A stretch of DNA of 64,000 nt from NCBI GenBank assembly GCA_905479495.1, contig CAJQMR010000008.1:124001-188000 (forward strand), in the 5' to 3' direction. This DNA is from an uncultured Anaerolineae bacterium. GTDB lineage: Bacteria > Chloroflexota > Anaerolineae > Promineifilales > Promineifilaceae. Below are positions 26,800 through 29,797 of this stretch, piece by piece (the first letter of the stretch is position 1; every line of letters begins with the position of its first letter). The position numbers and the translations under genes are program-made. The notes under the pieces are model-generated. The model had not been told where the DNA came from and did not search any database. It saw only the letters and a program-made list of their open reading frames with translations.

Positions 26800-26816
26800 T
26801 GTTTTTGGAGAAAACC

Positions 26817-27383
26817 ATGCTCGATTTGTTTAGCGCTTTTGGTCTGGCGGGCAGTGCTGGCCTCAACGCTTACATTCCCCTCCTGTTGGTGGCCCTGGCG
26901 GCTCGTTTTCCCCTGAATGATCCCCTGCTTAATTTAGCCGAACCATATAATGTGATGGGCAGTTGGTGGGCCATTGGCATCATCAGTGTGCTGCTGATCA
27001 TTGAGATGTTGGTGGACAAGGTGCCCGCCATCGACACCATCAACGATGTGATTCAAACTTTTGTGCGGCCTGCTGCGGGGGCCATCCTCTTTGCCGCCAA
27101 CGCCAACATTGTCAACGATGTTCACCCAGTTTTGGCGCTGGGGGCTGGTCTGATTGTGGCGGGGAGCGTGCACGCTGTGAAGGGCGTGGCTCGACCGGTC
27201 GTCACGGCAACGACAGCAGGCACTGGCAACTGGCTGGTGAGTTTGGTGGAAGACATTGTGGCTTTTTTCACCTCAATCCTGGCGATTTTTCTGCCGGTTT
27301 TGGGGATGCTGTTATTGGTGGTGCTCTTATTTTACGGGTTTCGCTTGTACCGGCGTCGCAAGCAACGCACCGTTTTTCGGTAA
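26817..27383 (+). CDS. DUF4126 family membrane protein
   Basis: A 188-residue protein; ATG 26817 has TTGGAGAAAACC upstream, which is in frame and better than the TTG track start. It has five helices and the DUF4126 hallmarks GLAGSAGLNAYIPLLLVALA at the N-terminus and VKGVARPVVTATTAGTGN in the third quarter. The family is a membrane protein of unknown function, common in Chloroflexota and Actinobacteria. The tail YGFRLYRRRKQR is basic, suggesting a cytoplasmic C-terminus. Confidence 0.87.
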   Translation: MLDLFSAFGLAGSAGLNAYIPLLLVALAARFPLNDPLLNLAEPYNVMGSWWAIGIISVLLIIEMLVDKVPAIDTINDVIQTFVRPAAGAILFAANANIVNDVHPVLALGAGLIVAGSVHAVKGVARPVVTATTAGTGNWLVSLVEDIVAFFTSILAIFLPVLGMLLLVVLLFYGFRLYRRRKQRTVFR

Positions 27384-27431: not shown

Positions 27432-27866
27432 ATGAACAATCTTGATATGCAAAGTGTTTTGAAAGCTGGTGGCATTGGTGCAGGCATTGCAATTGTATTG
27501 GGTCTTTTATCTTTGATTCCAGTTATTGGCGGATTTATTGCCATCCTTTTTCTTTGTGGTGGGTTCTTGATTCCGATTGGCTCAGGCATTCTTTATGGAT
27601 ATTTTGCGCCAGGTCTAGAAGACACTGCTACATCAGCAATCGGTGGGGCGTTAGCTGGTGGTGCCAGTGGTATTTTGTTGGCTGTTTTTAGCGCGATTTC
27701 AGGTGGCATCTCTTCTGGTTTACAAGAAGGCGTTGGTGCTGGTTTAGCGGGTGGCGCGATCAGCGGTATCTTTGGTGCTTTGTGCTTTGGCATCATGGGA
27801 TTTGTACTGGGTGCTATTGGTGGCGTAATTTGGCCGTTTATTCAAAAGCAGATGGGCGGCAACTAA
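27432..27866 (+). CDS. Small Gly/Ala/Ile-rich membrane protein
   Basis: A 144-residue protein with a strong binding site (TTTTGGAGGCTTCTAA) before ATG 27432. Four very hydrophobic helices are rich in Gly, Ala and Ile (GIGAGIAIVLGLLSLIP; GGFIAILFLCGGFLIPIGSG; two more Gly-zipper helices). I recognise no catalytic motif. The sequence has a more AT-rich third-codon style than its neighbours and no ACGGCCGT inside, which could mean newer acquisition or strong conservation. It ends in a terminator built from that palindrome. Confidence 0.75.
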   Translation: MNNLDMQSVLKAGGIGAGIAIVLGLLSLIPVIGGFIAILFLCGGFLIPIGSGILYGYFAPGLEDTATSAIGGALAGGASGILLAVFSAISGGISSGLQEGVGAGLAGGAISGIFGALCFGIMGFVLGAIGGVIWPFIQKQMGGN

Positions 27867-27891
27867 CCTGATCTTTACTCAACATAATAAC

Positions 27892-27929
27892 GAAAACGGC
27901 CGTTTCCCTTTGGAAACGGCCGTTTTTTT
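27892..27929 (+). terminator. Rho-independent terminator made of two ACGGCCGT palindromes
   Basis: AAACGGCCGTTTCC (27894-27907) and GGAAACGGCCGTTT (27912-27925) form a perfect 14-bp stem around CTTT, followed by T's. Each arm is itself the iterated palindrome, so each can also fold alone. Confidence 0.92.
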
Positions 27930-28006
27930 ATGTCTTAGCCACAGGGTGGGCAACCGGAGAGAAGTTTACTTGTTTGGCCAGGGTATCACCCGGTCGCCTC
28001 GTCCCT

Positions 28007-28044
28007 ACCGATCACCGATTACTGATTACCGCTTACCGCTTACT
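28007..28044. repeat. CGGTAATC-word repeat, one arm (copy 2)
   Basis: CCGATCACCGATTACTGATT and CCGCTTACCGCTTACTG words. On the minus strand it follows the last codon of the GTPase gene and contributes its stop (CAG TAA GCGG). No complementary second arm is obvious. Confidence 0.75.
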
Positions 28045-29797
28045 GTTCGCTTTCCTCCGCAATTGCTTTTAACTTCAACTGTGCTTGCAGGCCACTGATG
28101 TGCGCTTCCAGCTCTACCAACTCATCCCGCTGAGCAGAAATTTTATCATTTTCAGCGCGAACAAAACGGGCAAACGGGGCGATGGTATCCTCAATGCGTT
28201 GGGCACCACGCCGCATTTCACGAGTGAATTGTTCGGTTAGACTGCTGACCAGTTTCTGGCGCAGGTCGGCCAACTTCTCGGCAAACTCAGCTTTTGCTTT
28301 CCGTTTACGAGCCGGTAAAACGAGCAGCCCCAAGGCCGCTGCCGCAATTCCGGCAAAGATGCCTGTGTAGTCGAAGAAGGCGGTGTGGGCAACCACGGTA
28401 ATCAGAACACCCAAGCCAACGCCAACCCCAGCCAAACCTGTATTGACAACGGCCGTTCGCGCCGCAGAGGCCATTTCCATGGCTTCTTTCTCTTTGTCGT
28501 AGGTTTCTACGGCCCGCCGGGTGGCCGCCCCGATGGAGTCGATCAGGCGCTGCCGATCATAGGCTAGCGTGCCTTCTTTGGGACCGGCTTGCCCCACGAC
28601 GCGATTGTCGTGGGCTTCCTTGCGCTGCGCCATGTGGTCGGCAATCGCGGTCCATTGGCGCAAATCTTGTTCCACCATCCAGTCGATGAGTTCGCTAACC
28701 CGACTTTCAATGTCGCGGGGCGTTTGGCCGACAACCTCTTGCTCAAATGCTTTTTCCATTTGGCGCGCCCGCATCAGGTCTGGAATGCGGCCCAGTCGCA
28801 TTGTTTCGTCAAAAAAGTCGTTGCCCCGTTTTTCCATCTCGTACAAAACATTGTCGATTTCACTAAGGCGGGCCTTGAAGTTGCGCTGCATGTCTTCGTC
28901 ATAATACAGCATCTGCCGCTCGATGTCGTCTAGCAGCTGCCGGTCCTCTTCCAGAGAAGCAAGGTCAGATTCGCTGTAGCTGAGCTGTTTGCGTACCAGC
29001 TTGAGTCCCACTCCCAATGGATTGAGCAGCTTAAGGCGGAAACGGCCGTCGTCATCCAATGTGTCATGGATAAACTGCTCCAGCGGTTCAAAGCCGCTTT
29101 GCTGCCACAGTTGGGGCTGACCGGCTTTGGCCTGTTGGGCCTGCTTGGCAGAAATGGGGAACACGGCCGAAATCTCACCCACCAGATTTTTGGCAGACTC
29201 TTTGACAAACTCGATGACCTGATTGCGCTCACCCTCTTTGGAAAGAATGTCGGTTTTGTTAACCAGCAGCACAATCTTTTTGCCCCAGTCCCGAATCTGG
29301 GCCAGGAAGGTGCGCTCGCTTTCGCTAAACGGCCGATCCGCCGAGGTGATGAACAGCACCAAATCAGAGCGAGGAATGAATTCGGCCGTCAGCGCCTCGT
29401 GCTCACGCAAGATGGCGTTGGTGCCGGGTGTGTCCACAATGCTGATTTTCTTGAGCATTTCGATGGGGGCCGTTTGCACCCAAACGCCTTTGTCACCAGG
29501 TACCTGGTTGGTTACTTCGCCGTACTTCAGCAGAAAAATCTGGCTGGTAGTTGGGGTGACGCCTTCCGTTTGCAGCTCTTGCCCCAAAAAGGCATTGATA
29601 AAGGCCGATTTGCCTGAATTGAATTCTCCGGCGACGACAAGCAGAAACAGGTCATCTAGCTGGCGGATAGAGTCGGCCAGGGCGGTGCGGTTTTCTTTAG
29701 AAGCGGCCGTATCGCCTAACAGGTCTCGCAGTCGGCCTAATGTATCGCGGGTGCGTTTGAGCAGTTCTTCTTGCTCGGTGTTTAAAATAGCGTCCAT
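28040..29797 (-). CDS. Dynamin-like (BDLP family) GTPase
   Basis: A 585-residue large GTPase. ATG 29797 is the only good start, with a weak site. G1 is VVAGEFNSGKSAFINAFLG, G2 is TPTTSQIFLL, G3 is IVDTPGTNAI and G4 is LLVNKTDILS. The rest is helical with coiled-coil segments, two hydrophobic segments (VVNTGLAGVGVGLGVLITVV and FAGIAAAALGLLVLP, about residues 455-500) and a basic region, then a terminal coiled coil. Bacterial dynamin-like proteins remodel or fuse membranes and can act in stress or phage defence. It is monocistronic and ends in a repeat. Confidence 0.92.
   Translation of the reverse strand: MDAILNTEQEELLKRTRDTLGRLRDLLGDTAASKENRTALADSIRQLDDLFLLVVAGEFNSGKSAFINAFLGQELQTEGVTPTTSQIFLLKYGEVTNQVPGDKGVWVQTAPIEMLKKISIVDTPGTNAILREHEALTAEFIPRSDLVLFITSADRPFSESERTFLAQIRDWGKKIVLLVNKTDILSKEGERNQVIEFVKESAKNLVGEISAVFPISAKQAQQAKAGQPQLWQQSGFEPLEQFIHDTLDDDGRFRLKLLNPLGVGLKLVRKQLSYSESDLASLEEDRQLLDDIERQMLYYDEDMQRNFKARLSEIDNVLYEMEKRGNDFFDETMRLGRIPDLMRARQMEKAFEQEVVGQTPRDIESRVSELIDWMVEQDLRQWTAIADHMAQRKEAHDNRVVGQAGPKEGTLAYDRQRLIDSIGAATRRAVETYDKEKEAMEMASAARTAVVNTGLAGVGVGLGVLITVVAHTAFFDYTGIFAGIAAAALGLLVLPARKRKAKAEFAEKLADLRQKLVSSLTEQFTREMRRGAQRIEDTIAPFARFVRAENDKISAQRDELVELEAHISGLQAQLKLKAIAEESEQ

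Follow-up and report, generated by a model that had tools for sequence, protein, structure and literature searches.

The closest described relatives of the hairpin considered here are the terminators built from the DNA-uptake sequences DUS and USS of Neisseria and Pasteurellaceae (Haemophilus), in which an iterated motif forms both terminator arms (Kingsford et al. 2007, PMC1852404; PMC2397512). Pairs of these uptake sequences accumulate between convergent genes and seldom occur within coding sequences, the A-rich side of the motif supplies the tails, and most copies of the motif lie outside terminators (PMC1852404; PMC2397512). A second type of iterated motif is represented by the cyanobacterial HIP1, GCGATCGC, and the alternate HIPs, which are GC-rich palindromic octamers occurring more than once per kb and mostly within genes, with a different palindrome taking over in some relatives (Elhai 2015, PMC4390886). 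The word 'terminator' is absent from that paper on HIPs, and a literature search found no paper combining 'highly iterated palindrom' with 'Chloroflexota'. While the principle of terminators made from an iterated motif is already known for uptake sequences, what is new here is that the motif is a perfect, HIP-like palindrome and that the host belongs to the Chloroflexota.

The window, i.e. the whole 64-kb stretch of DNA that was analysed (G000:C8:124001-188000), belongs to a genome of 7.28 Mb (G000), whose assembly has a completeness of 95% and a contamination of 7.4%. For the dynamin-like gene in the window, the nearest named relatives come from Chloroflexota/Anaerolineae MAGs, at 84% identity. 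The octamer ACGGCCGT occurs 126 times in the window, where 1.0 copy is expected, while the whole genome contains 11,512 copies as opposed to 99 of the reversed-letter control; its density is thus about one copy per 0.6 kb. Usually it is preceded by an A and followed by a T, and 3,502 of 3,914 copies (about 90%) in a 2.46-Mb sample are genic. Within genes, the octamer displays a strong reading-frame bias (1293 : 692 : 357). As a palindromic octamer far above expectation, with a density of more than one copy per kb (at least about one being the mark of a HIP-like motif), a mostly genic location and a replacement in relatives (TCGGCCGA in G009), ACGGCCGT is HIP-like. On the other hand, it differs from HIP1 in sequence, being ACGGCCGT and not GCGATCGC, and in phylum, its relatives being Chloroflexota MAGs. 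A methyltransferase link as in cyanobacterial HIPs gained no support from the two families examined: no C5 methyltransferase (PF00145) was detected in G000, a 95% complete MAG, or in the palindrome-rich genomes G002, G004, G005, G008, G012 and G020, and PF01555 gave only weak matches and no strong one in G000. In comparison with uptake sequences, the main difference lies in symmetry, since DUS and USS are directional and require inversion for pairing, whereas ACGGCCGT, being its own reverse complement and hence perfectly palindromic, can pair however the two copies are oriented. Moreover, unlike DUS and USS, it has no known uptake function, and it is found in a different phylum.

At 27892-27929, the plus strand reads G AAAACGGCCGTTTCC CTTT GGAAACGGCCGTTTT TTT by direct inspection, where AAAACGGCCGTTTCC covers 27893-27907 and GGAAACGGCCGTTTT together with the following T covers 27912-27927. 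The locus comprises the following features:

26805-27383, plus strand: DUF4126 gene, codirectional with and upstream of the 144-aa gene
27432-27866, plus strand: gene of a 144-aa hydrophobic protein without a Pfam family, with the predicted terminator downstream; kept in the related genome G001 including its ribosome-binding site
27892-27907, plus strand: 5' stem arm GAAAACGGCCGTTTCC, with ACGGCCGT at 27896-27903
27908-27911, plus strand: loop CTTT, 4 nt, between the stem arms
27912-27927, plus strand: 3' stem arm GGAAACGGCCGTTTTT, with ACGGCCGT at 27916-27923
27923-27929, plus strand: uninterrupted run of seven T (T7), the putative U-tract, its first bases shared with the 3' arm
28040-29797, minus strand: dynamin-like GTPase gene, convergent with the DUF4126 and 144-aa genes; anchor for finding homologous loci

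The two arms form 16 pairs, both contain ACGGCCGT, and T7 directly abuts the stem. The fold reaches -29.1 kcal/mol, while shuffled sequences average -10.6 with an sd of 2.66 (z = -6.95). The sequence confirms the original prediction of a terminator-like hairpin with the palindrome in both arms. The same prediction spoke of two copies facing each other; the pair is indeed present, but orientation is meaningless for a self-complementary octamer. This self-complementarity further implies that a perfect stem with ACGGCCGT in one arm must hold it in the other, and because one arm forces the other, the surprise amounts to a single coincidence and not to two.

Like ordinary intrinsic terminators, the element combines a stable, GC-rich stem and a 4-nt loop with a T-run on the gene strand at a short distance from a stop codon, the stem starting 26 nt past that of the 144-aa gene. 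In contrast to ordinary intrinsic terminators, whose stems are locus-specific, the stem sequence is common to many loci. On its minus-strand side the hairpin is followed by TTTTCG only; hence, it mainly serves the plus strand. In the list of a consensus terminator scanner for 20 kb, the site (16 pairs, 8 G-C) stands second of 28, although this total is no overall excess above shuffles (26.8). All six Rfam matches remained under the respective family gathering score. We consider it very probable that the hairpin is an intrinsic (Rho-independent) terminator which ends the DUF4126/144-aa gene pair and whose stem consists of two co-opted ACGGCCGT copies; it presumably terminates transcription in the cell. 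The home-made hexamer model used for gene calling overlooked the 144-aa ORF (coding score 2.8); the ORF is kept in G001, which identifies it as a real gene. Between the terminator and the dynamin-like gene, at 27985-28010, lies the stretch CCCGGTCGCCTCGTCCCTACC, which looks like an inverted repeat found at the corresponding position of the relatives (GGGGCGAGGCGACCGG / CCGGTCGCCTCGCCCC in L106); this region is perhaps a dispersed repeat serving as terminator of the opposite gene.

The original prediction had further proposed a search for other terminators with paired ACGGCCGT in this genome, their lack being named as one ground for refutation; further examples do exist, so that the idea withstood this check. 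A pattern of two ACGGCCGT copies 3-30 nt apart followed by TTTT (ACGGCCGT-N3..30-ACGGCCGTTTTT) was searched in the whole genome, whereas gene-based statistics were derived from 2.46 Mb sampled in stretches. The pattern yielded 25 matches corresponding to 24 distinct places, one of them being counted on both strands, while the reversed-octamer control pattern had zero matches genome-wide. Given 238 close pairs, and thus 476 ends, and TTTT after 1.08% of all octamers, 5.1 matches are expected (Poisson P about 3e-10). At spacers of 31-61 nt, which exceed what a compact hairpin allows, only 5 matches with TTTT occur in the genome, although such pairs are commoner than short ones (366 vs 154 ends in the 2.46-Mb sample). 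Hence, TTTT is enriched about 5-fold, and only at hairpin-compatible spacing. This result also bears on the function of the individual hairpin, because stable 3' hairpins are able to shield mRNAs from exonucleases, and the very stable stem at 27892-27929 could in principle stabilise or process an mRNA whose true end lies elsewhere. With T7 abutting the stem and TTTT confined to hairpin spacing, this option appears extremely unlikely.

With genes called by the hexamer model, 18 of the 24 places fall into intergenic gaps downstream of a gene that is read in the direction of the T-run, and in 10 of these the flanking genes converge; 4 places are genic and 2 of uncertain placement. Pairs 18-26 nt apart were counted in the 2.46-Mb sample. 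Inside genes 15 such pairs were seen, compared to 52.6 expected from local density, while between convergent genes 5 were seen and 0.5 expected, an enrichment of about 10-fold; tail-to-head gaps held 4 (2.1 expected) and head-to-head gaps 1 (1.6 expected). For gene-end gaps versus genes, Fisher's test gives P = 2.4e-5. Moreover, when short pairs are examined for complementarity of the three bases next to the palindromes on the inner side, 87-92% of those at gene ends match, vs 37% in genes. Within genes, copies nearer than about 40 nt are avoided, e.g. 4 seen and 35 expected at 12-17 nt, an avoidance that points to selection against intragenic hairpins. A role at the DNA level, be it as protein-binding dyad, cruciform, uptake or methylation site, would account for the fact that the octamer resides mostly outside terminators and therefore needs some other cause or role; however, it predicts neither that a T-run lies on the same strand as the preceding gene, nor the placement at gene ends, nor complementary inner arms, and we regard it as very unlikely to replace termination as the function of the hairpin.

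Behind 1,481 gene ends of the sample, 222 terminators were predicted (7 in shuffled sequence), so that only 15% of the examined gene ends carry any predicted intrinsic terminator. The commonest octamer in the predicted stems is ACGGCCGT, and paired copies are present in 12 of the 222, where a convergent hairpin may count for both its genes, as compared to 2.1 expected. The latter number is what the mere frequency of the octamer would give if these were ordinary terminators that contain the palindrome by genome abundance alone, without forming a class of their own or being selected as pairs. Considering the observed 12, the excess in convergent gaps (5 vs 0.5), the depletion in genes and the restriction of TTTT enrichment to hairpin spacing, such an explanation is highly improbable. 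Counting against the proposed co-option, besides the 15% just mentioned, is the low share of predicted terminators with the palindrome, only about 5% as opposed to 16-55% with DUS/USS. Apart from this share, the two systems have much in common, namely the use of the iterated motif in both arms above chance, the convergent enrichment and genic rarity of the pairs, motif-supplied tails and the location of most copies outside terminators.

Evidence from related genomes was obtained with the congeners G001 and G003, which share 85% identity in the dynamin-like protein and contain 23 and 34 pattern matches, respectively. At least ten G000 hairpins have a partner at a homologous gene end in G001 and/or G003, and in these conserved hairpins the octamers are kept while loops, inner stems and T-runs are altered. 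Compensatory changes in the inner stems were examined as proof of RNA selection and discarded, being few and, since arms of different loci pair in 83% of cases as well, not decisive. Inside an aligned coding region, G000 and G001 also share a ACGGCCGT pair (L024 and L325) whose copies are 24 nt apart and followed by TTTT. At the locus of 27892-27929, the stems read TTTCC/GGAAA in G000 and TTACC/GGTAA in G003, and G001 possesses a variant with one GCGGCCGT arm. Just upstream of the hairpin in both congeners lies the end of a gene that we take to be Yip1-like from our own reading of its sequence. The order in G001 is 144-aa gene, Yip1-like gene and hairpin, whereas in G000 (27840-28040) the Yip1-like gene is missing and the hairpin directly follows the 144-aa gene. 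Here the operon end has evidently changed, while the predicted terminator stayed.

With regard to the order of events, we infer that the palindrome was there before its co-option. Lacking a loop, a lone ACGGCCGT copy cannot fold in RNA, but two copies close together always constitute an inverted repeat, whatever their orientation, and the A-before/T-after context of the octamer already starts a U-tract. At one copy per 0.6 kb, ready-made stems should arise often. Stems inside genes would be selected against and purged, while those behind gene ends would be kept, their inner arms growing complementary and their T-runs lengthening. The opposite order, in which a terminator existed first and its near-match stem was converted in both arms in step by an octamer-creating process, is possible albeit unlikely. 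It would be consistent with stems that consist of one perfect and one variant copy, such as the GCGGCCGT-armed one of G001 at this locus, with the single-copy stems among the predicted terminators, and with the variation of the stem sequence between genomes with different palindromes. Yet it requires two coordinated changes per stem, close pairs arise anyway at such density, and by itself it leaves the depletion in genes unexplained. Co-option of existing copies should not be confused with the suggestion, made alongside the original prediction, that the palindrome spreads by way of terminators. That suggestion was abandoned, as only about 50 of the 11,512 copies sit in the 24 places and most copies reside in coding DNA.

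The association extends across the family. All 23 family genomes with at least 2,800 octamers contain paired terminator-like sites, compared to 1 of 12 with fewer octamers, and over these 35 genomes the number of paired sites correlates with that of octamers (Spearman 0.82); none was found in 24 genomes outside the family. In G009, ACGGCCGT has only 85 copies and TCGGCCGA has 7,668, and this genome carries 4 TCGGCCGA-paired sites with TTTT. In G033, which has 198 copies of ACGGCCGT and contains TCGGCCGA seven times in one 4.7-kb locus, there are 6 TCGGCCGA-paired matches with TTTT, while no TCGGCCGA-paired T-tailed sites occur in the other genomes searched, G000 included. The stem sequence tracks whichever palindrome a genome iterates. 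A further octamer, TGCCGGCA, is abundant in G013 (3,665 copies), where only 2 TGCCGGCA-paired sites have a T-tail, so that its use as a paired-terminator motif is suggestive at most. Taken together, there is good support for a co-option of the iterated motif into the stems of intrinsic terminators, and the original idea of a co-option for gene ends has held up in view of the recurrent class of sites, their gene-end placement and U-tracts, their conservation in congeners and the parallel with another palindrome in relatives. We put forward as a speculative and rather doubtful extension that the palindrome of the family can switch between ACGGCCGT and TCGGCCGA and that terminator stems are rewritten accordingly. 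The palindrome switch between relatives sets this family apart from DUS and USS.

These results imply that iterated-motif terminators are not peculiar to the DNA-uptake sequences of competent Proteobacteria. Inside one Chloroflexota family, the same co-option is encountered with two different palindromes, whereby co-option, which is explained by motif abundance, becomes separable from the primary role of the motif, and the family provides a phylogenetically replicated set for testing the order of events. If switching and rewriting were true, functional RNA elements would be remodelled throughout the genome by whatever process keeps up the palindrome, which would make the family a natural experiment on the origin and functionalisation of iterated motifs.
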